In this document: in pieces, positions 39,002 through 61,986 of the stretch
How the letters are laid out: every line of letters begins with the position of its first letter
How positions within the stretch are numbered: the stretch's first letter is position 1
Source of the DNA: Pseudovibrio sp. M1P-2-3
GTDB lineage: Bacteria; Pseudomonadota; Alphaproteobacteria; Rhizobiales; Stappiaceae
Assembly (NCBI RefSeq): GCF_031501865.1
Contig: NZ_JARRCW010000001.1
Span: 691,001-755,000 of the forward strand
Direction of reading: 5' to 3'
Length of the DNA: 64,000 bases
Translations under genes and position numbers: made by a program
Notes under the pieces: generated by a model
The model's database searches: none
What the model was told of the DNA's origin: nothing
The model's input: the letters and a program-made list of their open reading frames with translations, nothing else

Positions 39002-39631
39002 TTAAGCAGCGCTACAAGCAAAGCTCTGCTTGTCTGGCTGGCGCATAGTATCGGGTTGCAATTGCTTTGCCAACCAATGGGAGCGGCACAGGGAAACATA
39101 GGATTCCTCACCCCCAATAACCACTTGGTCCCCTTCGTCGACGATTTCACCAAGACTGTTCAGGCGGGCAACCATTGTAGCCTTGCGTCCACACCAGCAA
39201 ATTGTGCGCACTTCGCGCAGCACATCGGCCAGCGCCAGAAGGGCTGCGCTTCCGGGAAACAGTTTTCCTTGAAAATCGGTGCGAAGGCCATAACACATAA
39301 CAGGAATGCCGAGGGTGTCCGCCACTTTCGCCAGCTGCCACACCTGTGTTTCATTCAGAAACTGGGATTCATCAATAAACACCGCATCCAGTTTGTTACC
39401 TGCGATAAACTCACTCACGCGTGCAAACAGGTCCAGTTCGCCATCAAAAATTTCCGCATCGGCTTTCAGCCCGATACGGGAGGCGATTTCTCCCACCTTG
39501 GTCCTGTCGTCAAGTGCTGCCGTAAACAGCAAGGCGTGCATACCGCGCTCTTGATAGTTATAGGAGGCTTGGAGCAGGAGAGTAGACTTGCCTGCGTTCA
39601 TTGTAGAGTAGTTGAAATAGAGCTTTGCCAT
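39002..39631 (-). CDS. tdk: thymidine kinase
   Basis: This is a 209-residue type II thymidine kinase of the salvage pathway. The P-loop is STMNAGKST (residues 9-17), the DESQF motif (about 88-92) has the catalytic Glu, and the zinc-binding Cys are in TICWCGRKA, with a further Cys in the C-terminal part. Length and motifs are normal. It is a lone gene in the pgsA-uvrC interval. Confidence 0.95.
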   Translation of the reverse strand: MAKLYFNYSTMNAGKSTLLLQASYNYQERGMHALLFTAALDDRTKVGEIASRIGLKADAEIFDGELDLFARVSEFIAGNKLDAVFIDESQFLNETQVWQLAKVADTLGIPVMCYGLRTDFQGKLFPGSAALLALADVLREVRTICWCGRKATMVARLNSLGEIVDEGDQVVIGGEESYVSLCRSHWLAKQLQPDTMRQPDKQSFACSAA

Positions 39632-39871
39632 GGTCCGCTGAAATTGTCTGTGTGTCTTGCTTGTCTAACTCATACAGGATTTCTGGGCGCGGGGATGGAG
39701 CTTTCTATTTTTTCCAAAAACTTCTGGAAGTTCTCAACGCTCTTTTAAAGAGGGCACTGCAATTTCTTCTAGAGGAGGTCGTAAGATGGGCCGCTAAAAA
39801 GAGAGCAGGGCAGATACTGGAGGGCAAAGCCACGATTGCCCTGATCTCTTTTCCCGATGGGGGCATCGGAA

Positions 39872-40600
39872 CTATGTATGCAGAACATACTCCAAAGGCG
39901 CACCCAGCTCATCCCGCTCCAGTGCAGGTTTTTCACCGGTAATGAGGTAGTCATCAAACCAGATGTGTGGCAGCTGATCGGCTTTTCTCATCCACTCGTC
40001 CACCAGCGGATCGGCGCAGATGGTTTCCATCCAGCTTTTGGAAAGCGGCCAGCGTGAAAGGTCTGGGGTGTGCCTAAGCAGCCGGATCGCCGCTGGTGTG
40101 AGAGAATGATCTGCAAGGGAGGCTGCACCAAATAAATAAGGCCCGCCGCTCTTTTCCAAAATCGGTTCAATCGCAGCGCATAAGCGCTCAGCGTCCTTTT
40201 GCTCACCTTCTGTCAGGGCGCGCTTATAAGGATAAAACGCGCTTTCAAAGGAAATGCGGGCGCAGATGCTGGAAAGCCCCGCATGTTGCCACGCCACAAG
40301 TGAGCGCGCTTGCGCCCGTTTTACAAGGTCCACCGGCAGCAGGCGGCCCTCGCACGTATCATTGGCGAATTCCATAATGGCGAGGCTGTCGAAAATGGTC
40401 AGCCCGTCCACCACCAAGGCAGGGACTGTTGCCGAGGGTGAAAGGCTGGCCATATGGTCCAGATTGGCAAATCGTTGGGGGCGTTTGATATCAACCATGA
40501 TCTCTTCAAAGATCAGGTCCGCCGCCTTCAAAGAAAGCCATGCCCGCATTGCCCAACTAGACGCATTATAAGTGCCGCAATAAAATCTGAGGCTTTTCAC
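39872..40600 (-). CDS. glutathione S-transferase family protein
   Basis: This is a 242-residue GST-like protein. The thioredoxin-like N-terminal domain starts CGTYNASSWAMRAWL and has VPALVVDG and DSLAIMEF motifs; a helical C-terminal domain follows. A GTG at 40600 is the likely start, as upstream sequence to 40657 is not family-like. The reaction is unknown. Confidence 0.85.
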   Translation of the reverse strand: MKSLRFYCGTYNASSWAMRAWLSLKAADLIFEEIMVDIKRPQRFANLDHMASLSPSATVPALVVDGLTIFDSLAIMEFANDTCEGRLLPVDLVKRAQARSLVAWQHAGLSSICARISFESAFYPYKRALTEGEQKDAERLCAAIEPILEKSGGPYLFGAASLADHSLTPAAIRLLRHTPDLSRWPLSKSWMETICADPLVDEWMRKADQLPHIWFDDYLITGEKPALERDELGAPLEYVLHT

Positions 40601-40806
40601 TTGTTTCCATCTCCAGAATTGATAACTATTAAAATAATAGCGATTCGGAGTGCGCATGGCAATGACCTCATGAAAATACGGTCACCCGCAGATGAAATTG
40701 CAGGATAGGAAACAATCACTGAAGCCATTGCTCTTTCGCTTTTTTATGGGGTATTGCATCATTGGCTTAAGCATGAGGCTTAACCGCTTTGAAAAGGTAG
40801 AGGTTT

Positions 40807-41181
40807 ATGACGGCAACGCCCAAAATTTCCATTCCCCAACCCGGTCAGCCAGTTCGTGGATCGAAAACGGGTGCGCCGGTTATGGCGCTGCTGGACCTTT
40901 TGGGTCGGCGCTGGGCGCTTGGGGTTCTGTGGGTATTGGCGGAGAATGCGCCGTGTACATTCAATGCCCTGCAAGCCAAGTGCACCGGCATTTCACCGGG
41001 GGTTCTCAACACCCGCTTGAAAGAGCTGAAGCTGGCAAACCTGATTGAGCAGGGGGAAAGTGGCTATGCGCTGACCTCGCAGGGCGCGGAACTTTTTAAC
41101 ATGATGGAACCACTGGGTATGTGGGCCAAATACACATGGGCACCAACATTTGAAGAAAGCGAAGTGCCGGCAAAGAAATAG
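40807..41181 (+). CDS. HxlR-family transcriptional regulator
   Basis: This is a 124-residue winged-helix regulator. LLDLLGRRWALGVLWVL (about 28-44) and FNALQAKCTGISPGVLNTRLKEL are the family core. It lacks the N-terminal Cys seen in redox-sensing HxlR proteins such as HypR. It reads divergently from the GST gene, which it may regulate. Confidence 0.9.
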   Translation: MTATPKISIPQPGQPVRGSKTGAPVMALLDLLGRRWALGVLWVLAENAPCTFNALQAKCTGISPGVLNTRLKELKLANLIEQGESGYALTSQGAELFNMMEPLGMWAKYTWAPTFEESEVPAKK

Positions 41182-41190
41182 GCTGGCGCC

Positions 41191-41403
41191 TTACTTCTCC
41201 AGCAGCTTGTGGCTATCTCTTGCTTTTAGATCAAGGCTATAGGCCGCTTTCATCTTCTCGATAAACTGGATGGTTTCCTTACCAAAGGGGGCCTTGCCTT
41301 CAAAGCTGTGTAGCACTATACCTCCTATCAGGTCTCCCAGACCTACCTCTTTTTCTGCTGCCACAGCCTTTAGTACCTTCAAAACCCGCTTTTCCAAGCG
41401 CAC
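41191..41403 (-). CDS. short conserved ribbon-helix-helix-like protein
   Basis: This is a 70-residue protein starting at GTG (41403). VRLEKRVLKVLKAVAAEKEV followed by GDLIGGIVLHSFEGK resembles a small family of proteins in related bacteria that usually begin with ERVQTGVRLEKR. Those codons are present just upstream here, but an in-frame TAG seven codons back leaves no good longer start. It is convergent with the HxlR gene. Confidence 0.5.
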   Translation of the reverse strand: MRLEKRVLKVLKAVAAEKEVGLGDLIGGIVLHSFEGKAPFGKETIQFIEKMKAAYSLDLKARDSHKLLEK

Positions 41404-41518
41404 GCCTGTTTGAACGCGTTCTATCTTTTTCTATCTGGGGTCATTGTGATCTCAGTGTCTTCTAGTCGTCACTGTGGTGCCACGGTACCAAATGGCGAGC
41501 AATACGGAGTAATTGCCT

Positions 41519-42451
41519 ATGTTAAGAGCCAGTACAGCCCTCAATTCCATCAAGAATCCGCCCGAACATCTGGCGGGAGTATTTTGGGCGTTACTGGCGA
41601 CTTTACTGTTTTCAATCGTAGCGGCAATGGCGAAGATGGCAGCTCTGGAATATCACGTGCTGCAAATCCTGTTCATTCGGCAGGTGGTTGTCACCCTCTC
41701 CTCGCTTCCCTCCATTGCCCGCTCGTTTCCCCATAGCCTGAAAACCCAGTATCCTTTGCTTCATGGATTACGCTTGGTGGGGTCCTTTGTGGCTCTTGCC
41801 TGTGGTATCTGGGCGGTGACCGAGCTTCCTTTGACAACAGCTATAACACTAGGCTTTTCCAAGGTGTTTTTCATCACCGTTCTTTCTATTTTATTTCTAG
41901 GGGAAGTTGTTGGAATGCACCGCATTTCTGCGGTGGTTCTTGGGTTCTTGGGGGTGGTCATTGCCATGAAACCGGGTACGGAAGGGCTGTTTGAACTCTC
42001 CACGTTGATACCGCTTTTGGGCGCCGCAGGCGCGGCTGTCGCGGTGACCACTGCCCGCCGCCTCTCACAAACCGAAAGCACCGCCACCATGCTGCTTTTT
42101 CAAGCGCTGTTTGTGGGTGGTCTGGCGGCTGTTCCCATGTTCTGGTTCTGGAAGACACCGGACCTTGAAGGGCTGCTGTTCCTACTCGTCCTAAGCATCC
42201 TTGCAACTGTTGGCCAGTGGTCGGGCATTCAGGCCCTGCGCGAAGGGGAGGCTAGCATTCTTGGCTCTATTGAATACACCAAGCTGATCTATGTGGCCCT
42301 TCTGGGGTTCATCCTGTTCGCTGAAATTCCAGACCTCTATACCATCCTCGGCGCGGCTCTCATTGTCGGTTCCGCTGCCTACATGCTGCACCGCGAGGCT
42401 ATTAAAAAGCGGGGGGCGCAGCAGAGTCTTATGGACACCGGATCTCAGTAA
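41519..42451 (+). CDS. EamA/DMT-family transporter
   Basis: This is a 310-residue membrane protein with ten helices arranged as two EamA repeats (about 20-150 and 165-300). The start at 41519 has GGAG 9 bases upstream. DMT proteins export or import small metabolites such as amino acids and nucleosides; the substrate is unknown. Confidence 0.9.
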   Translation: MLRASTALNSIKNPPEHLAGVFWALLATLLFSIVAAMAKMAALEYHVLQILFIRQVVVTLSSLPSIARSFPHSLKTQYPLLHGLRLVGSFVALACGIWAVTELPLTTAITLGFSKVFFITVLSILFLGEVVGMHRISAVVLGFLGVVIAMKPGTEGLFELSTLIPLLGAAGAAVAVTTARRLSQTESTATMLLFQALFVGGLAAVPMFWFWKTPDLEGLLFLLVLSILATVGQWSGIQALREGEASILGSIEYTKLIYVALLGFILFAEIPDLYTILGAALIVGSAAYMLHREAIKKRGAQQSLMDTGSQ

Positions 42452-42569
42452 GGGCTGACCAAGGAGAAAGGGCTCACACCTTAACCAATAGATATTGGCA
42501 TATCGGACACGTGAAACGTAGGTCCGGTATGCTGCATTGCGTGCTCACTTATAAAACTACGCTATTATT

Positions 42570-42989
42570 TTAGCTTATTCTTCTGATCAAGGCAGTTGCA
42601 GAGGAGCGGGCTATCAACTTTCCATGTTGCATGAGTTCCCCCTCCACCACGCAGACCGACCGCCCCTTGGAGATAACGCGGCCATGACCTGTCAGCTTGC
42701 CAACCAGCGCGGGCGCAATAAAGTTTGTTTTCAATTCCAGTGTGGGGGCAAACTCGTTTTCGCCCAGAGTTGCCGTTAGCGCCGGTCCCATTGTGTCATC
42801 CAGCATGGCAGCTAGAAAACCACCCTGAATATTCCCGATAGGATTGGTAAACTCTTCTTTCCCATCAAATTCAACAGTGATGGTTCCAGCCTTTGAATCA
42901 ACTTCTAAAATGCGAGCCCCTAGCGTTTGTGCAGCCTTTGGCTGCGCAATTTCTCCATCCAGCATTTTTTGAAATATGCCCCGCCCCAT
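42570..42989 (-). CDS. PaaI-family hot-dog thioesterase
   Basis: This is a 139-residue single hot-dog domain. The motif NIQGGFLAAMLDDTMG (about 55-70) holds the catalytic Gly and Asp of the PaaI/4-hydroxybenzoyl-CoA thioesterase group. I start it at 42989 since GGGGAG lies 6 bases upstream; an ATG at 42995 is in frame but overlaps the ribosome site. The frame continues to 43238 without conserved sequence. Confidence 0.9.
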   Translation of the reverse strand: MGRGIFQKMLDGEIAQPKAAQTLGARILEVDSKAGTITVEFDGKEEFTNPIGNIQGGFLAAMLDDTMGPALTATLGENEFAPTLELKTNFIAPALVGKLTGHGRVISKGRSVCVVEGELMQHGKLIARSSATALIRRIS

Positions 42990-43194
42990 ACTCATCTCCC
43001 CTAATAAGAAACAGTCCCCTGACTCCCATAGTATTTTGCAGATTACACCTTTTGCTCCGCACTTTTTCGAGGTTCCTATGGGGAGGCATAACTTGAGTAG
43101 ACAACCCCGTTTAACTTTCGTCAAGCAGTAGCCACAAGCACGCCCTCCTGCACCGGCTAGGTTTCCCCGGAACAGAAACTTGAAAAGCCATTCG

Positions 43195-43965
43195 TTATGT
43201 AGGCAAACCGGCTTCAAAGTAACGCTGCCTGACGTCAAGAATGCAGCGCTGACGTGAGGATCTGCTCACTTCATGGGGGGCAAAATCAGCTTCCACGCTG
43301 TCCAGCAGGTCAACCGTTTGCCGTAAAACCTCCTTGGTGCGGTCTGCCATTTCCTCAGGGGTGATAGCGGTCAAGTACTTGATAAACCGAACACCGGTCT
43401 GCTTAAGAAATATTGTTTCCGGCAGGTTGTCGCGAGTACACACACCGTAAGTCCCATCCAGAAAATACCCCCACGTCTCCTCAAACTGGGCCGGACTTAT
43501 GCTGTTGCGTAGGTCTGGCATGAGCTCATCCAGTGCTTGCCCAAGTGTACCGGCAAAAAATGCTTGTTGAGCTGCTTCGAACCGGACGAGAAAATAAGCT
43601 TTGGCTTGCGGCTCCCCTTCAATCCCCATGGACTTGATGGCCTTGATCCAATCCACTTGTCCTTTTGAATAAAAACGAAGGTCTTGCCTCTCCTGATGCT
43701 CCCCGAAAAACGAATGAGACTTGCAGCTCATATCAAGGCGGTAGGATGGTGCGGGGACCACTTGCGCCTCAATAAGGTCGTGTAGGCGTTGTGAATTTCC
43801 CCCCGTTTGCGCAAGCAAGCGGGGCTCGCTCAGAAAGTTATTATTGAGGTAGTCGAAAAGCATGGGTCCACTCCAATTATCATCCCCGAGATTATAGAGG
43901 GATCCATCTTTTGAAGGTTCGTTACTGGGCGAACTATGAAAACAAGAATGTCTGAATAGGTCCAC
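43195..43965 (-). CDS. DUF6058-like protein
   Basis: This is a 256-residue protein. The segment from LFDYLNNNFLSEPRLL to VVPAPSYRLDM, with CKSHSFFGEHQ and YSKGQVDW after it, resembles DUF6058, a family of unknown function annotated around natural-product loci in marine bacteria. There are no membrane helices. A start at Met35 is possible. It stands alone beside the IS30 element. Confidence 0.6.
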   Translation of the reverse strand: MDLFRHSCFHSSPSNEPSKDGSLYNLGDDNWSGPMLFDYLNNNFLSEPRLLAQTGGNSQRLHDLIEAQVVPAPSYRLDMSCKSHSFFGEHQERQDLRFYSKGQVDWIKAIKSMGIEGEPQAKAYFLVRFEAAQQAFFAGTLGQALDELMPDLRNSISPAQFEETWGYFLDGTYGVCTRDNLPETIFLKQTGVRFIKYLTAITPEEMADRTKEVLRQTVDLLDSVEADFAPHEVSRSSRQRCILDVRQRYFEAGLPT

Positions 43966-44041
43966 ACAAGGCGAACGGAGAGGGGGCGCGCGTTAAGAAC
44001 ATATCGCGAGCAAACCCTATTGCAGCATTAAACTGATGGAT

Positions 44042-45081
44042 TCACGTTTGAAGTGCAACACAGCTAGTGTCGTGTTGTTATGGGACAAGTTTATTCACAT
44101 TTAAGCCTTGAAGAACGTATTGAGATTTATCGCTTGCGTTGCGGCGGTATGTCTCTTCGTGGAATTGGCCGGGAGATAGGTCGTTCTGCGTCAACGATCA
44201 GTAGAGAACTGGGGCGCAATTGCGGGGACCGCCGCGGGCGTGACGGTCCATATAATCCTGTTAAAGCAAACCATCGCGGGTGGATGCGTCGGCGTATGCG
44301 GCGATGTTTCAAGTTGGCGCTGCATCCAAACCTACGCGAACTGGTTCGCACTAAACTTGCGGGGGGATGGTCTCCCGAGCAGATTTCCGGTTGGTTGGCC
44401 CTGACACGTAATCCCCTGCAGATTAGTCATGAATCCATCTATCGTTACATCTATCATCGCAACCATCTTTATCGCGATCATTGGCATAAGTTATTGCCAT
44501 TGCGTCGTTATCGGCGAGGACATAAGCGCCGACGTAAGGGAGCACTGGATGTTATCAAACACCGTCATGGCGTGAGTAAACGTTGCGTCAGTGCCAAAGA
44601 CCGTCAAATTGCGGGGCATTGGGAGGCAGATTTGATGTGCTTTTCAATAACCGGACCTGTTTTGTTGATTGCACATGAACGTTACTCACGCTTAACTCTT
44701 GTCACATTTCACAAAACCAAGACCTCAAAGCCATTGATGAACACCCTTTGTAGGCATATGCACGGTCTGCCCCATACTCTCAGACAAACTATTGTTTTTG
44801 ATAATGGAACCGAGTTTGCCAGTCACATGCTGCTTGCAAAGAGGCTTGGGATGATGAGCTACTTTTGTGATCCTAGATCACCATGGCAGAAAGGAGGCGT
44901 CGAAAATGCAATTCTTCGCTTACGACGGTGGCTGCCTCGATCCACCAATATTACCTCTCTTTCAAAAAAGGAACTTGATGAGATCGTTCACAAGTATAAT
45001 TCTACACCAAGAAAGTGCCTTCAATTTCGAACGCCAAAACAAGTGTTCGAAAATGCCTTAACCGTTGCACTTCGCTCGTGA
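44042..45081 (+). mobile_element. IS30-family insertion sequence
   Basis: This is about 1040 bp with 18-bp imperfect terminal inverted repeats: TCACG, three mismatches, then GAAGTGCAAC on the left (44042-44059) and its complement at 45064-45081. I could not settle the target duplication. Confidence 0.85.
44080..45081 (+). CDS. IS30-family transposase
   Basis: This is a 333-residue transposase. It has an N-terminal helix-turn-helix (HLSLEERIEIYRL..., with SASTISRELGRN), and a DDE core with Asp in HWEADLM, Asp in FDNGTEF and Glu in KGGVEN. The stop TGA (45079-45081) lies inside the right inverted repeat. The frame is intact. Confidence 0.95.
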   Translation: MGQVYSHLSLEERIEIYRLRCGGMSLRGIGREIGRSASTISRELGRNCGDRRGRDGPYNPVKANHRGWMRRRMRRCFKLALHPNLRELVRTKLAGGWSPEQISGWLALTRNPLQISHESIYRYIYHRNHLYRDHWHKLLPLRRYRRGHKRRRKGALDVIKHRHGVSKRCVSAKDRQIAGHWEADLMCFSITGPVLLIAHERYSRLTLVTFHKTKTSKPLMNTLCRHMHGLPHTLRQTIVFDNGTEFASHMLLAKRLGMMSYFCDPRSPWQKGGVENAILRLRRWLPRSTNITSLSKKELDEIVHKYNSTPRKCLQFRTPKQVFENALTVALRS

Positions 45082-45364
45082 GTCTCCAACCCCGGATCAA
45101 GTCCGGGGTGACACTGGTGCTTGTAACCGAGCCCTCACACCACTCTGCCGTCATCACCTAAACGAATGACTTGATACTGCTGGATACCGGATCGGCGCTT
45201 TGCTTGTCCGGTATGACAAAGGGAGAATACTGAAATCAAACTGAGAGCTAGCAAGAGTGGGGACTTCAGTGAAGCCACAAGCCACCCAGTCATCCCGGCC
45301 CCCGAGCCGGGATCCATACAAAAAGGATAAATAATGAGATTAAATGACGGGTACACCCAGCCCT
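45082..45364. repeat. cluster of GC-rich palindromes
   Basis: Three hairpins follow each other: CCCCGGA-tcaag-TCCGGGG (45090-45108), ATACCGGA...TCCGGTAT (45184-45214) and ATCCCGG...CCGGGAT (45294-45315). The first type (CCCCGGATCAAGTCCGGGGTGAC) is widespread between genes in alphaproteobacteria. No gene is seen. Confidence 0.65.
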
Positions 45365-45418
45365 TCACTCATGAAAATGATCATAGATCACTTTCGCAGT
45401 ACACCTTAAAATGCCTTC
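45365..45418 (-). pseudogene. second, diverged copy of the last codons of uvrC
   Basis: Read on the minus strand this encodes [18 protein letters not shown] plus stop, against [17 protein letters not shown] plus stop at the end of the intact uvrC (47517-47569). Twenty bases are identical (45366-45385 and 47518-47537), and several other differences are silent. It lies 10 bp after the stop of the 588-residue gene. Confidence 0.8.
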
Positions 45419-45427
45419 TTCAGTTAC

Positions 45428-47194
45428 TCAACGTCCGCCCTCAATACGGCTTTCGTGAATCAATTTGCCAATATTCCAAATAGCCTCTCCAACATTTGAA
45501 ATAAGCTGTTCCCCTTGTCTCATATACGACCGGCCTTCATCAACACCAGCTAATTTTAGAGCTTCACCAATCTTTGAGCTGGTTGGGTGTGCATCACCTA
45601 CTCTCATGTCGTATGCTCCGACGATTGGACCGAAGACCGACCTAGCTATATCCGCACCAACATTTTGGGCCAGAATATCCTGAAGAAGCTTATTGGAACC
45701 AAATTTATTTTTATCAGAATGTGTAGATATTTTACGAAGTTCACTAACGTTAAGTCTCTCCGAAAAAACACGAACAAGCTCTTTCGCTAGTCTCAGCAAC
45801 GACGCCTGATCTTTACTTTCAAAGCGGGAAATATGTCTAAGGCTTACCACTTTATCTACGTCGCGGGAGAAAAGAGAAATGTTGAACACCTGATCAAATT
45901 CCATCTCTAGCTGCTCCATGCCCTCGAAAAAGAGAACTTCGACAGCTTCGGTGGAGGCAGGCTGTATCTTAACTTGTGCGTCTAGCAACTCTAATGAGAC
46001 CTTCCCATCAGGGACGACATTATGAGCTGCCCAAATGTGCTGCTCCCAACTTGCAAGGCGCGCGATATCAGCGGCATACACTGTTATTAAGTCAGATTGG
46101 TTGATACCAAAATGTGTCTCGTAGCTCGAAGTTGAGCAAATTACTCCTGTTTCCAACGTACACCATCTAAGAGAAAAACCTCTGAGGCTTAAAAGCTCGT
46201 TAACTACACTGGATCGAAACCACAACCATCGACCACTTTCGTCGTTGTCTAGCTCTGAAGAAGCCATTCGTGTTCCGTCGGTTTCGGTAATGAACTGTGG
46301 TAGAGATTTATCGGCATCACCACGGACGCGTGTGCTTTGCTCTTGATGTTCAATCCACTCGTCACGCCAGTACCCACCTTCAACCCGCATACCTTCATAA
46401 CCTCCTCGATAACCCTTTGAGCTCTCATAGTCGGTGTTATTATCGTTTTCCGGCCCCATCACAGGCGCGTCGTCCTCTTCATCGACGTCAGTACGCCAAG
46501 CCCTAAATAAAGCAAAACTTCTACCAAAAATACTTTCAAGCTGGTTTACTCGGAGTTCAAATCGACCGTTATTTCGTTGTTCACTAATACTTTCTAGGTT
46601 CGCGTATGGGCTACCTTCAAGGGAGGCAACATTTTCTACTCTTTCACGGTAGTAGGAAAGGCGAAGCGAGAGGTTTCGAGCTGCTAGGTAGTCGATCAAA
46701 AACTCTCGCTTTATTTCAATAAGGCAATGATCCCCACTCTCATTAAGAACTTCTCGGGCCACAACGATAAAATTCTCTTCTGGTCTTACCCAGTTTGTAC
46801 CCTCTTTTATCAAACCGAGTGCAATAACTAGATCTGGATTTAGGATCCATTGCCTTCTACCCACAACTGGCTGGACGTACTCAAAAACAAGGTGAAAACC
46901 AATCGGTTCCTTGTTGTTATATTCATACTGCTCAACAGGCGAGTAGTCACCATCGTCGTATGCATAAGGTCCAGTATTGCAACTGATACCAATGTCTCTC
47001 CAGCTAAGTTTTTCGGCTAATTCGCGGTGCCCCGGAGGAAATGCAACTGATCCGCATCCCTTATATTCTTTAATGTAGCCTATCTCTTTAATTCCCACCT
47101 TCTCGTCACATATGGATTCTCGTAAAGGAATCCAAGTTGCTTTGGAGAAGAAACGGCGTGTTTCTTTTCTATGAAGAATCCAGTCTTGGTCCAT
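45428..47194 (-). CDS. orphan 588-residue protein of a small island at the uvrC 3' end
   Basis: I do not recognise this protein. It has no signal peptide or membrane helix. The first 230 residues are mixed with several aromatic patches (WIPLRES, YAYDDGDYSPVEQYEY). A region near 235-300 is acidic, Tyr/Gly-rich and probably disordered. The second half is more helical and ends with a Gly-rich stretch. The codon use is more AT-rich than that of its neighbours. It lies alone between duplicated uvrC 3' ends, which suggests horizontal gain. A defence or accessory function is a guess from context only. Confidence 0.72.
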   Translation of the reverse strand: MDQDWILHRKETRRFFSKATWIPLRESICDEKVGIKEIGYIKEYKGCGSVAFPPGHRELAEKLSWRDIGISCNTGPYAYDDGDYSPVEQYEYNNKEPIGFHLVFEYVQPVVGRRQWILNPDLVIALGLIKEGTNWVRPEENFIVVAREVLNESGDHCLIEIKREFLIDYLAARNLSLRLSYYRERVENVASLEGSPYANLESISEQRNNGRFELRVNQLESIFGRSFALFRAWRTDVDEEDDAPVMGPENDNNTDYESSKGYRGGYEGMRVEGGYWRDEWIEHQEQSTRVRGDADKSLPQFITETDGTRMASSELDNDESGRWLWFRSSVVNELLSLRGFSLRWCTLETGVICSTSSYETHFGINQSDLITVYAADIARLASWEQHIWAAHNVVPDGKVSLELLDAQVKIQPASTEAVEVLFFEGMEQLEMEFDQVFNISLFSRDVDKVVSLRHISRFESKDQASLLRLAKELVRVFSERLNVSELRKISTHSDKNKFGSNKLLQDILAQNVGADIARSVFGPIVGAYDMRVGDAHPTSSKIGEALKLAGVDEGRSYMRQGEQLISNVGEAIWNIGKLIHESRIEGGR

Positions 47195-47516
47195 ATATCA
47201 ATAGGCTCCATCCGTACTTTCAGAGTGCAAAATCATCACAAGAACCGGATCTTTTAGCTAGGTGATCAAGGCTAAAACATAGACATTCAGGCTATTGCTA
47301 AAGATGGGGTTCTCACCGAAACAAGATAGTCTCACTAATTATTTGCAGCAATAAATTGCATTAATCAATTGCTGTAATTTTAAGTATGCACTTAGTTAAT
47401 GCGGCACAGCCACATGTTTGCGCTCAAATGAATGGCAGCGGTGGCCTTATACCAGCAGGGACTTTTCAAGCAGCATACAAACGAAGGAAGCACAGTGTAA
47501 TTTTCCCCACCACCCC
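47195..47516. other. AT-rich region upstream of the orphan gene
   Basis: These 322 bp are AT-rich and hold no gene. They should contain the promoter of the 588-residue gene and form the uvrC-proximal border of the putative island. No integrase or tRNA is present. Confidence 0.5.
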
Positions 47517-49553
47517 TCACTCATGAAAATGATCATAAATCACCTTGGCGATGCTCCGTGAAATGCCCTCTACCTTAGCAAGATCCTCTACGCCCGCTTT
47601 AGACACAGCTTTGGCGGTGCCGAAGTGGCGCAGGAGGGTGCGTTTGCGGGTGGGGCCGATTCCGGCGATTTCGTCAAGCGGGTTGGCAACAATGGCCTTG
47701 GAGCGTTTGGCGCGGTGGGTGCCAATGGCAAAGCGGTGGGCTTCATCGCGCAGGCGCTGCACGAAGTAAAGCACCGGATCACGCTCTGGCAACATGAAGC
47801 TTTGTTGGCCGGTGATGAAGAATTTCTCCCGCCCCGCGTCCCTGTCCGGCCCCTTGGCAATGCCCACTAGCGGAACACCCGTGATGCCCATTTCTTTCAA
47901 TGTATCACGCACCGTGCTCAGCTGGCCCATGCCGCCATCAATGAGCACAAGGTCCGGCCACTCGGGCACATCCGCGCTGGTGAGCGCATTATCCTCGCCA
48001 GCCTCTTTTTCTTCCAAAGTGCTGGCAGCCGTAACGAACTTGGCGGTTTGCGCTTCGCCCTCGGGGCATTCTTTTTGCAAGCGGGTGAAGCGGCGTTGCA
48101 GCACTTCGCGCATCATGCCGTAATCATCACCCGGCTCAATATCCTCGGACTTGATATTGAACTTGCGGTATTGCCCCTTTGCAAAGCCTTCCGGCCCCGC
48201 CACGATCATACCGCCCACGGCATTGGTTCCCTGAATGTGGGAGTTGTCATAGACATCAATGCGGCGCGGGGTGCGGTCCAGCTTGAAGGCCTTGGCTACA
48301 CCTTTAAGAAGGCGTTGCTGGCTGGAGGTTTCCGCCAGCCTGCGGCCCAGTGCGCCCTTGGCGTTGGCAAGAGCATGGTCCAGCAGTTCCTTTTTCTCAC
48401 CGCGCTTTGGAACGGTGATCTCCACCTTGTGGGAGGAACGGGCGGAAAGCGCTTGCGAGAGCAGCTCCATCTCCTCAAGATCGTGGGAAAGCAGAACAAG
48501 GCGCGGCGCGGGCTTGTTGTCGTAAAACTGGGTGAGAAAGCTCTGCAGGATTTCTTCCTCGGTAAAGCTCTTGTCCGCTTTGGGGAAATAGGCCCTGTTG
48601 CCCCAGTTCTGGCCGGTGCGGAAAAAGAACACCTGTACGCAGGTCTGCCCGCCCTCCTGATGCACGGCGAACACATCCGCTTCCTCGGTGTTTTGCGGGT
48701 TGATGCCCTGATGGCTCTGCACATGGGAAAGCGCTGCGATCCTGTCGCGGTAAACGGCGGCGCGCTCGAAATCCAGATTTTGCGAAGCTTTTTCCATCGC
48801 GCTCGCCAGCTCTTTCTTGATGGCTTGCGAGCGGCCTGAGAGGAAAGCGCTGGCCTCGTTCACCAGCCCCTGATAATCCTCTTTCGAGATCTCTCCCGTA
48901 CATGGCCCCGCACAGCGCTTGATTTGGTAAAGCAGGCAGGGGCGGGAGCGGTTGGCGTAGTAGCTGTCGGTGCAGTTGCGCAGCAAGAACGCTTTTTGCA
49001 AGGCGTTGATGGTTTCATTCACCGCGCCTGCATTGGCAAAGGGCCCGAAAAACTTACCTTGTCTGCTGCGCGCCCCGCGGTGCTTGATAAGGGCAGGGGC
49101 CTCGTGGTTGCCGCTGATGAGGATATAGGGAAACGACTTGTCATCGCGCAGCAGCACGTTAAAGCGCGGGCTCAGGCGCTTGATGAGGTTGGCTTCCAGC
49201 AGCAGAGCTTCCGCCTCTGTTTTTGTCTCCACAAACTCCATGGAGCGGGTGGCCATGATCATGCGCATGATGCGGTTGGACTGGCCCTGCAGACGGGTGT
49301 AGCTGCTCACCCTTTTCTTGAGCGAACGCGCCTTGCCCACATAAAGTACATCTCCCGCTTCATCGAACATGCGGTATACACCGGGGCTAAACGGCAGACG
49401 CTTCACAAAGTGGGCAATCACCTCAACGCCCTTCGCACCTTCCGGCACCTGAGAGGCCGAGCCGCTTTCAAAGGTAATTGCGGGCTCGCTCCCTCCCTCG
49501 GGAAGGGTTTGTTCTGCCTGTTCCGGTTTATCCATGTCTGGTGTGCTCGTCAT
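47517..49553 (-). CDS. uvrC: excinuclease ABC subunit C
   Basis: This 678-residue nuclease makes both incisions in nucleotide excision repair. The N-terminal GIY-YIG domain has PGVYRMFD and [12 protein letters not shown] (about 55-85). A UVR segment lies around 240-275. The RNase H-like domain has [17 protein letters not shown] and [12 protein letters not shown]. The C-terminal helix-hairpin-helix ends in IYDHFHE. The first 45 residues are an acidic extension. Confidence 0.97.
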
Positions 49554-49628
49554 GCGGTTGAGTATAGCGTAGAGGCAGAAAAAAGGGCGAGCGTTTGTTG
49601 TGGGTTGAACGCTCGCCCTCTTGGAGTT

Positions 49629-50615
49629 TTAGGCAGATCCCAACATAAGAACCATGTAGATATAGGCAATGTAGCCAAGGGTCATGAGAGCACCGCCCAC
49701 TTTGCCAAGGCAAACTTTTCTCATAGCGAAATACATCAGCAACACCGCACAGGCCAGCATCACCCACAGGTCAAAGCTCAGCAACTGCTCGGGCACGGGC
49801 ACCGGTATGATGATCGTCGTGATCCCCAAAATTGCCAGAATGTTGAAGATGTTGGAGCCAATGACGTTGCCCAGTGCAACACCGGACTGCTTGCGAATTG
49901 CGGCCATGAGGGTCGTTGCCAGTTCTGGCAGCGAGGTGCCAAGAGCAACCACGGTCAAGCCAATGGCAGCATCGGTCACGCCCCAACTGCGGGCAATTTC
50001 CACGGCTCCTTCAATGGTGAAGTGTGCGCCAACAGGCAGACCAATCAGGCCAATGACAACGTAAACCAGGATCTTCCACAAATCATCGGGTACACTGTCG
50101 GGGTCGATCTCGTCCATCGGGTTATCGCTGCTACAGGCATTTTTCTGGGCCTTTTCCGCCTTGCGATGCTGCATGGCGTGGTATGCGGAGTAGCCAAGGA
50201 ACAGTGCAAGCAGCGCAAGCAGCAAAATGCCCGAGAGATAAGAGAGCGGGCCGTAAAAACACAAGGCGATAAATACAAGGGAGATAACGACTGCAAAAAC
50301 CGCATTGCGTGTGGCCCCTTTTTCGCTGCAGGGGGTGGCGGCAATCAAGGCGGGCAAGCCCAGCACAAGCAGAACATTGGCAATGTTGGAGCCAACCACA
50401 TTCCCGATTGCTATTCCGCCAGCACCCTCAAGCGCGGACTTTAGTGAAATAACAAGTTCTGGAGCGGAGGTGCCAAAGGCAACAATTGTCAGGCCAATAA
50501 CAAGGGAGGGAATGCCCAGCTTGGTGGCTGCGCCAACAGATCCGCGCACGAGAAGATCTCCGGCAAAAACGAGGGCAGCCAAACCACCGATGAGGCTTAT
50601 GTAAGCAAAGAGCAT
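49629..50615 (-). CDS. calcium/sodium antiporter of the CaCA family (YrbG-like)
   Basis: This is a 328-residue protein with about ten helices in two inverted repeats. The alpha motifs are IVAFGTSAPELVISL (about 45-59) and VVALGTSLPELATTL (about 226-240), and a loop of acidic and charged residues lies between the halves. The family exchanges Ca2+ for Na+ or K+ across the inner membrane. Confidence 0.92.
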   Translation of the reverse strand: MLFAYISLIGGLAALVFAGDLLVRGSVGAATKLGIPSLVIGLTIVAFGTSAPELVISLKSALEGAGGIAIGNVVGSNIANVLLVLGLPALIAATPCSEKGATRNAVFAVVISLVFIALCFYGPLSYLSGILLLALLALFLGYSAYHAMQHRKAEKAQKNACSSDNPMDEIDPDSVPDDLWKILVYVVIGLIGLPVGAHFTIEGAVEIARSWGVTDAAIGLTVVALGTSLPELATTLMAAIRKQSGVALGNVIGSNIFNILAILGITTIIIPVPVPEQLLSFDLWVMLACAVLLMYFAMRKVCLGKVGGALMTLGYIAYIYMVLMLGSA

Positions 50616-51019
50616 AGGATCATTAAGTCCGCGTTAGGGTTCCCGCAGCATCTGCGAAGTTACTGAAAAATCTATCAAGGGGATAGCTCAGGGGTATATA
50701 ATCGTTTCCCGGTGCTTCTTGAACCCTTTGAGCGAAATTAATGGTGAAACTAAAAGAAGGCGGAGTCCACAGGCTCCATTAAAAAATATTAAGTGGTTAA
50801 AATTATTTATGTTTTTTAAAATGACGCTGCGGCATGAATGGGTTGCGCTTGCCGCCTCATTTAGACCTAGATTTGCCTCAAATTCTCCATTTTTCCGCAA
50901 TTTTCCACCCCCAATTTCTCTCCATACCATTTTGACGCGTGCAGGGCAGAGGCTTTTGCATGTGTTCGGGCACGACAAACTCAAAAATAATTTGCCCTTT
51001 AAAAATTGGAGAAAAGATC
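50616..51019. other. intergenic region upstream of the Omp25-like gene
   Basis: These 404 bp contain no gene that I can support. The part from about 50730 to 51010 should hold the promoter and leader of the outer-membrane gene. A stretch at 50684-50700 looks like a tRNA D-arm but has no T-arm. Confidence 0.45.
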
Positions 51020-51667
51020 ATGTTGCGTATTGCATCCGGCTCAGCCTTGCTGGCCGTACTTGCTACTTCTGCATTTGCTGCAGATCTGCCCCAAGAGACA
51101 CCGGTTGCTTACGAAGAGCCGGTCACTGTGCAGGGCTATGATTGGAACGGAGCTTATGCAGGTGCATCTGCTGGCTGGGGCTTCTTGGGAGCCGACGGCA
51201 AGTCTGGAGCTTCCGGCGCGCTTGACACAGATACAGATGGAGTAAATCTGGGTGTGTTTGGTGGTTATAACTTCATGGCCTCCCCGAACATTCTTCTGGG
51301 CACAGAAGCAGATATTTCCTTCAACGACTATGACAAGTCCGTTAGCGGCACCGAGCTGAAATCTGACTGGAATGGTAGCTTGCGTGGACGCGCCGGTTAC
51401 GTGATGGACCGCACCCTTGTCTACGGTACAGGTGGTCTTGCTCTGGCTGATTTCGAGGCGAAAAGCTCCAGCGATAAAGACGATACCATTGCCGTGGGTT
51501 ATGTGGTCGGTGCAGGCGTCGAGCAGGCACTCACAGATCGCGTGAATGCTCGTATTGAATATAACTACCAAGATTTTGGTACAGAGAAGTTTGATCTGGA
51601 CGGCGAAACCCAGAAGGTTTCCCTCGATGACCATCTCGTACGTGCAGGCGTAAGCGTAAACTTCTAA
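51020..51667 (+). CDS. outer-membrane beta-barrel protein (Omp25/OmpA-like barrel)
   Basis: This is a 215-residue protein. A signal peptide (residues 1-20, AFAA|D) is followed by an eight-stranded barrel. YDWNGAYAGASAGWGF, GVFGGYNFM and the final phenylalanine (VNF) are typical of the Omp25/31 group abundant in Hyphomicrobiales. I start it at 51020, where GGAGAAAAG lies just upstream. It ends at a terminator. Confidence 0.92.
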   Translation: MLRIASGSALLAVLATSAFAADLPQETPVAYEEPVTVQGYDWNGAYAGASAGWGFLGADGKSGASGALDTDTDGVNLGVFGGYNFMASPNILLGTEADISFNDYDKSVSGTELKSDWNGSLRGRAGYVMDRTLVYGTGGLALADFEAKSSSDKDDTIAVGYVVGAGVEQALTDRVNARIEYNYQDFGTEKFDLDGETQKVSLDDHLVRAGVSVNF

Positions 51668-51681
51668 ACCGGTTCTAAAAG

Positions 51682-51718
51682 GAAAGTGCCGGACCTGATC
51701 TGGCACTTTCTATTATAT
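51682..51718 (+). terminator. rho-independent terminator after the Omp25-like gene
   Basis: GAAAGTGCC (51682-51690) pairs with GGCACTTTC (51702-51710), followed by a TA-rich tail. Confidence 0.78.
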
Positions 51719-51721
51719 ATA

Positions 51722-51832
51722 TCTAGAGCAGTGAGGCGTTTTATTGAAACAGCTCACTGCTTTAACCTATTGTTTAGCCACGTGTCTTTACTAGAAAACT
51801 GGTATCTACTTTTTCAAAGGCACGCCCTAATC
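51722..51832. repeat. dispersed palindromic repeat, family 2, copy b
   Basis: AGAGCAGTGAGGCGTTTTATTGAAACAGCTCACTGCTTTAA forms the first hairpin. It is followed by GTGTCTTTACTAGAAAACTGGTATCTACTTTTTCAAAGGCACGC as the second. The layout equals that of 10184-10288. Confidence 0.68.
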
Positions 51833-51841
51833 TCTTTAAAG

Positions 51842-52453
51842 TTAGGGTTGCATTCTTGTGGCTTCAAATGACGGTACAGCTGCTTCGAAGTCATTGAGCC
51901 ATTTCAATAGATTGGGATAGGATTCGCGCCATTTTCCTTCAAATCGCAAATCAAGGTATCCCAGAGCGCAGGCAAGGGCGATCTGGGCCGCGTCCGGTGA
52001 GTTATGAGCTACAAAGTGCAGCGGCCCGTTTTCAAAGGTGGTCAAGGCACGGTCAATTTTTTCCTGCTGATAGTTCAGCCAGCCATCAAACCACTTTTCC
52101 TGTGGCCGCACCCGTTTTTCAACCACCAGAAGAATAGCCGCATCACAAATACCATCTGCCAAAGCCTGCTTTGTCAGCAGCTCAAAACGGCTTGCATCTG
52201 AGGGAAGAATTTTTTTGTGCTCGGAGATGAAATCCAGATACTCGGTAATAACCCGGCTATCGTAAAGGACTGTGTCATCCTCGGTGATCATCGCCGGAAT
52301 TTTGCCAAGGGGGTTCTGCTGGCGCAGGGAGTCTGTGGGAGAGTTTGTATCTGCTAATTCTATACTGAGATTTTCCTCAAGCCCCAGAACAGAGGCCGCA
52401 ATCTTGATTTTTCGGCCAAAAGGTGAAGCGGGGGAAGATCGTAGTATTAACAT
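51842..52453 (-). CDS. glutathione S-transferase family protein
   Basis: This is a 203-residue GST. SPFGRKIKIAA near the N-terminus takes the active-site position, and NPLGKIPAMI and DSRVITEYLD are the glutathione-binding motifs. The start at 52453 (MLILRSSP) is preferred over upstream Met codons. It resembles the YibF-type group. It is a lone gene. Confidence 0.9.
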   Translation of the reverse strand: MLILRSSPASPFGRKIKIAASVLGLEENLSIELADTNSPTDSLRQQNPLGKIPAMITEDDTVLYDSRVITEYLDFISEHKKILPSDASRFELLTKQALADGICDAAILLVVEKRVRPQEKWFDGWLNYQQEKIDRALTTFENGPLHFVAHNSPDAAQIALACALGYLDLRFEGKWRESYPNLLKWLNDFEAAVPSFEATRMQP

Positions 52454-61710: not shown

Positions 61711-61986
61711 AACTGCCGTGCACTGGTTCAACGAGAAATTCGATAGGAGCGGTGCAGCCAAGTGGGATAAAGGCAACGGTCACGTTTACTCCGACATTCA
61801 CCAGTTCTGTCTTGGCAATGCCTAAGTCATCACGGATTATGTGAAAGAGCCTCTCGGCGGCCGAGCTGTTTACAAGTCTTCCGGTGACGGCATCTATGAA
61901 ACAGAATAGCCTCTGGCGATAGGTGAGCGCGAGTACTATCCCTCTTGGAATTTCATCGCCTTCTCCCGTCTGGCATTTTCGTTCTA
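61711..61986 (+). pseudogene. decayed 3' end of a second FadL-like gene
   Basis: This stretch is similar to the last 270 bp of the intact gene (61207-61486). Matching segments include GTTCAACGAG, AAGTGGGATAAAGGCAACGG and CACCAGTTCTGTCTTGGCAATGCCTA. It ends in the same TTCTCCCG...TTTTCGTTCTAATCTG. It contains in-frame stops (TAA in GCCTAAG, TAG in AATAGCC) and indels. It keeps its own terminator at 62007-62036. Confidence 0.85.

Follow-up and report, generated by a model that had tools for sequence, protein, structure and literature searches.

The 3′ end of uvrC in Pseudovibrio sp. M1P-2-3 is duplicated, and the two copies enclose an islet of 2.15 kb with a single long gene. The duplication is rare among relatives, the gene has a mobile and integron-cassette history elsewhere, and one relative of it, in Gallionella, stands in a like architecture for which an empty site is known. 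We read the islet, with a confidence that is about even, as an integrase-less element that would be a minimal CIME by form, would have arrived by a crossover at uvrC and would carry a cassette-derived gene. All positions refer to the window, i.e. the whole stretch of 64,000 nucleotides that was analysed (contig NZ_JARRCW010000001.1, positions 691,001 to 755,000).

A repeat search of the window gave a direct repeat of 59 nt with 81% identity and a spacing of 2152. The proximal copy (47513-47571, minus strand) is att-like and continuous with uvrC, and the diverged distal copy (45361-45419, minus strand) begins 9 nt past the stop codon of the enclosed gene. Both contain an identical core of 21 nt, TCACTCATGAAAATGATCATA, at 45365-45385 and 47517-47537 on the minus strand. 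Even when three mismatches are tolerated, the window has no more than these two occurrences (0.00 expected). Direct repeats resembling attL and attR thereby flank the islet. Towards tdk no third copy of the core was found. Across the 4.96-Mb genome a 101-bp query matched these two places and no third at E ≤ 0.001, with an E-value of 1.6e-9 for the second copy. The preliminary description had claimed a duplicated uvrC end with 20 identical bases and with silent as well as replacement changes in the second copy, and this is borne out: the core is one base longer, and the 11 differences comprise six at third codon positions, four at first or second positions and one just past the stop codon. Relatives were compared as candidate empty sites by means of a degenerate but exactly matched pattern of the uvrC end. 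It fits 36 of the 87 genomes of the family, the other 51 being uninformative, and gave one match in each of 35 relatives and two in the own genome only; a decayed second copy would escape it. In an even draw across the order the pattern fits 16 of 397 genomes, and the double match was again that of the own genome alone.

The gene uvrC (47517-49553, minus strand, 678 aa) is intact, with the Pfam domains GIY-YIG, UVR, UvrC_RNaseH and HHH, and its 3′ end is the apparent insertion point. In 16 relatives uvrC also finishes in HFHE and a stop codon. The proximal copy is closer than the distal copy to these ends in 14 of the 16 relatives, with one tie and one in which it is farther (congener L017 was left out of this comparison), and the distal copy differs from all 16 at one conserved Ser codon. 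Over a stretch of 36 nt that closes the distal copy and was chosen post hoc, the uvrC end of a member of another genus (L061) shares 34 positions with the distal and 30 with the proximal copy; across 55 nt the counts are 41 and 39. From these alignments the distal copy would fit a foreign uvrC end that has been carried for long. An exact 24-nt match at G037:C91 was considered as an island holding the distal copy and was rejected, since what matches there is the normal uvrC terminus of the genome concerned.

The sole long ORF between the copies encodes a protein of 588 aa (45428-47194, minus strand) and is separated from uvrC by a leader of 318 bp (47195-47512, GC 40.9%), which among the 87 family genomes has a match in the own genome only. 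The last ~26 nt of this leader resemble, by eye only, the cassette leaders of relatives of the gene. The inner segment (2093 bp) has a GC content of 44.1%, whereas the window as a whole has 50.4%. None of 248 grid windows of the same size is as low, although one at 61751 (44.2%) comes very near, which agrees with the GC shift that had been looked for across the islet. A shift in k-mer composition did not single it out, since the tetranucleotide distance was exceeded by six of the 248 windows, with uvrC itself on top, and the measure is therefore not specific. In the wider context, uvrC forms one edge of a 7.9-kb stretch (39632-47516, reaching to tdk at 39631) that is missing from three congeners and holds genes for GST, EamA, thioesterase and DUF6058 proteins, an insertion sequence and the islet. 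The congeners have uvrC (67–73% DNA identity to the own uvrC), then a single gene, then tdk and the genes beyond; tdk (Pfam TK) and the gene order beyond are kept in the window. The single gene, which we take by eye to belong to the endonuclease/exonuclease/phosphatase family, had no match in the own genome in a search run without a positive control. Because the distal flank of the islet (insertion sequence, DUF6058 gene, thioesterase gene) is unlike that of the congeners, the native junction cannot be checked against them.

The absence of an integrase, as claimed in the preliminary description, was confirmed: none of 19 uncurated recombinase queries matched an ORF of at least 60 aa in 40001-52000 at E ≤ 1e-4. 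The transposase recognised nearby belongs to the IS30-type insertion sequence (44039-45084, plus strand; ORF 44080-45081; 21-nt terminal inverted repeats, 81% complementary), which lies outside the repeats. Elsewhere the genome has 13 matches to the phage integrase family, 11 of them above the cut-off, among which there are presumably Xer-type recombinases. When viral contigs were searched for a helper bearing the uvrC core, a 19-nt part of the core matched once, and this was discarded as a source and taken as chance since it lies inside a phage gene. Among the literature matches listed for uvrC together with island, none names a uvrC-targeting island, nor does the word uvrC occur in any of them.

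The description of the 588-aa gene as an orphan does not stand. A scan of a genome collection gave 33 loci in many phyla at 64–73% protein identity (L050 and L051 among them being partial near duplicates), and within the family of 87 genomes the gene is present in the own genome only. Relatives were also found in 13 plasmid records (28–66% identity; 10 were opened) and at four viral-contig loci, and no relative in phage records. In E. coli, 21 of 5426 genomes match, 20 of them across most of the query. Four of them were opened; in each, the gene adjoins a tyrosine recombinase sited at tRNA-Asn and a MobQ relaxase gene is close by (e.g. L080:4107-12902). One of these four copies of the gene is broken into two ORFs. 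The tree places the window protein among attC-bearing members, as sister to another alphaproteobacterial copy, with a support of 91/82 that falls short of the star level of the tree and on a long branch. The gene has spread horizontally outside this family of genomes. Some relatives occupy other settings. In Actinobacillus vicugnae one lies between cas4-like and cas1-like ORFs of an operon that by eye is type I-C-like CRISPR (L049:3256-13186). On a Fusobacteria plasmid the R gene and the M gene of a type I restriction-modification operon are separated by a distant relative (L059:4460-12555), and on a Nostoc plasmid a very distant one is surrounded by DUF499 genes, DUF1156 genes and a multiubiquitin/ThiF set (L092:174-10735).

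Many relatives have GCATAACAAGGCGCT...GCGTTA after their stop codon, in an attC-like layout; this is the layout of integron attC sites. Counted over 42 loci (window included, L050 and L051 excluded), an R′′-like motif within 38 nt past the stop codon occurs at 22 (500 shuffles: mean 1.8, maximum 8), GTTAT within 60 nt upstream at 17 (mean 3.2, maximum 9) and both elements at 15. A stricter test for complementary ends was positive at nine of 44 loci, one of them doubtful, and no covariance model was built as the loops in the attC alignment are very uneven. At L039 an integron integrase stands beside the gene (TIGR02249, 296 bits against a cut-off of 265), as one of ten recombinase-like ORFs scanned, and L053 has two integron-integrase fragments that score under the curated cut-off. 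In the window there is no attC after the gene, where the uvrC copy starts 9 nt past the stop codon, and no integron integrase was found at 40001-52000. The window gene would accordingly be a member of an integron-cassette lineage that probably lost its attC.

The sequence of the window protein had no match in Pfam, NCBIfam, PADLOC, PHROGs or PDB, and PADLOC assigned it to none of its families of described anti-phage systems. A profile built from 45 relatives gave one PDB match at E 1.6; a Pfam scan of these relatives gave seven weak families (best E 0.013), and PADLOC gave two Cas1 models, one member each (best E 0.013). R531 and H536, which form an R-x4-H motif, are invariant in all 45 aligned rows. 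The motif R-x4-6-H is the hallmark of HEPN RNases, in which the residue after R is described as usually polar, N, D or H (PMC3710099), whereas the window protein has V after R531. The C-terminal 198 residues were modelled as helical with a pLDDT of 83.6; Foldseek returned no match for this model at E ≤ 0.001, and no HEPN title was among the best 50 matches listed per search. A fold search with the full-chain AlphaFold model was discarded because the model is poor (pLDDT 57). We keep a HEPN RNase identity only as a weak lead. Annotated neighbours of the plasmid relatives include restriction-modification genes with an FRG-domain protein, a type I restriction-modification operon, a RES-family protein and a multiubiquitin/ThiF set with DUF499 and DUF1156; the other opened plasmids have no such defence-like neighbours. 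From these neighbours, a role of the family in defence is a reasonable guess.

Repeats around the relatives were scanned at 40 places (39 loci and the window) over 3 kb on each side, and eight of these places, compared with six of 183 random placements, have a direct repeat scoring 30 or more. Inspected by eye, three of the eight are gene 3′ ends, namely those in the window, at L037 and at L047. Of the other five, two look like attC, a third starts at the end of an attC, a fourth consists of repeated coding sequence and the fifth is unexplained. The repeats of L027 and L035 (attC-like), L041 (starting at the attC end) and L056 (repeated coding sequence) were set aside on this inspection, as was that of L049, which resembles an uptake sequence. 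L047 is truncated by its contig and the host gene is not visible; by eye only it may be a histidine kinase gene. The unexplained repeat, 79 bp long and 89% identical, brackets another relative, in an Ignavibacteriota MAG (L024:9703-13508).

The locus L037, from a Gallionella MAG, is the closest parallel in architecture. Here a gene for an AcrB-type RND transporter has, at its 3′ end, an insert of 3.16 kb that holds a BrnT/BrnA pair and a relative of the 588-aa gene. The insert is flanked by 155-bp copies of the RND gene end that are 90% alike, and no integrase was found in it. A second Gallionella genome, which elsewhere holds a copy of the gene 95% alike in DNA to that of L037 (L034), has an empty site (L093) that joins both flanks with a 155-bp overlap. 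Counted from the stop codon of the gene, the empty allele equals the distal copy at eight of the first ten informative sites and the proximal copy at all seven beyond (permutation p 0.002 on the three-way alignment, any split point allowed). Such a switch from one copy to the other is what a single reciprocal crossover would leave. Since the two genomes are MAGs, assembly error is possible.

That the islet was inserted at the 3′ end of a gene is well supported by analogy: for uvrC it draws on the finding of two uvrC ends in the own genome only, on the presence of the gene in one of 87 genomes, on its horizontal spread elsewhere and on the empty site of the Gallionella relative. Under our preferred reading, a circular element would have borne the 588-aa gene together with an attachment segment resembling the uvrC 3′ end, and a single reciprocal recombination within the 21-nt core would have placed it at the end of uvrC. 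On one side uvrC would have remained intact, while on the other the diverged uvrC-like arm of the element would have come to lie next to the gene. The cargo itself would stem from an integron-cassette lineage and would have shed its attC. We infer that a site-specific recombinase acted, that its gene was lost from this copy and that the crossover at uvrC ran in this direction. The preliminary description had seen here the footprint of site-specific insertion by an element that may be mobilised in trans. Insertion into the uvrC end is supported, with the empty site in Gallionella as a parallel; the footprint would be the same for a decayed element that has lost its integrase or for a crossover made by RecA.

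In the RecA reading, which we regard as unlikely, a non-replicating circle with a foreign uvrC end would have integrated by homologous recombination and no site-specific recombinase would have been needed. It is favoured by the Gallionella insert, where the homology to either side is much longer than a core could plausibly be (155 bp at 90%) and the switch falls near the middle, by the unequal lengths of the gene-end repeats (59, at least 136 and 155) and by the post hoc likeness of the distal copy, in its closing 36 nt, to the uvrC end of L061, a likeness that shrinks over 55 nt. Against it, 59 nt at 81% identity is a very short and diverged substrate, on which a RecA crossover is disfavoured, and differences are absent from one block of 21 nt, although the chance of such a clean run given 11 randomly placed differences is borderline (P 0.05). 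Somewhat less probable still is a more general reading, in which there would be a class of recombinase-free circles whose cargo is a gene of cassette origin, in some cases together with a toxin-antitoxin pair. Each would bear the 3′ end of some core gene (that of uvrC, of an RND pump gene, perhaps of one for a kinase), which would serve as an address tag and direct a single crossover into that gene in new hosts.

A local duplication of the uvrC end through replication slippage or duplication-insertion, with later decay of the outer copy and no element involved, appears improbable to us. The replacement changes in the distal copy do hit positions that are conserved among relatives, as they would in a decaying copy, and the clustering of the differences is no better than borderline. 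On the other side, six of the ten coding differences are, by plain count, at third positions, the distal copy is in part like the uvrC of another genus, and the mosaic in Gallionella, read against its empty site, argues against this mechanism. Slightly more doubtful even than this is that the islet has lacked an integrase from the start and is mobilised in trans by the recombinase of another element: the gene and the repeats are separated by only 318 and 9 bp of noncoding DNA, phage-integrase-family genes are at hand elsewhere in the genome and the Gallionella insert is of the same integrase-free kind, but no helper that shares the core was found (two pattern matches in the genome and the one chance viral match), and decay explains the missing integrase equally.

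Taken as an integrase-less element, the islet can be set beside three known systems. CIMEs (cis-mobilizable elements) are described as cargo between attL/attR-like sites that has no integration or transfer genes (PMC5704250). The islet is like them in its att-like repeats around the cargo and in the lack of such genes, and differs in that it is 2.15 kb with one gene and that no parent ICE or IME was found at uvrC. The e14 element and phage 21 insert into icd, with an integrase of their own and a much larger size, and duplicate the 3′ end of the gene in diverged form. They share with the islet the diverged duplicate of a protein-gene end and the intact resident gene, but are far larger and encode the integrase that the islet is without. 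Integron and solitary attC cassettes share the gene family, and the window copy keeps, by eye, a cassette-like leader, but the islet has no attC after its gene and no integron integrase near. To our knowledge, cassette insertion at attI, attC or attG duplicates no gene end. Work on attG is cited in the reference list of PMC11023631. The islet would be a one-gene, CIME-like unit with cassette-derived cargo.

The analysis links an unannotated gene family to integron cassettes, plasmids, integrative elements and solitary islets at gene ends. If recombinase-free circles of the kind outlined above exist, they would be a way for integron cassettes to settle outside integrons. The two loci, uvrC here and the RND gene with its empty site in Gallionella, would lend themselves to direct study of how genes borne on cassettes settle in chromosomes outside integrons.
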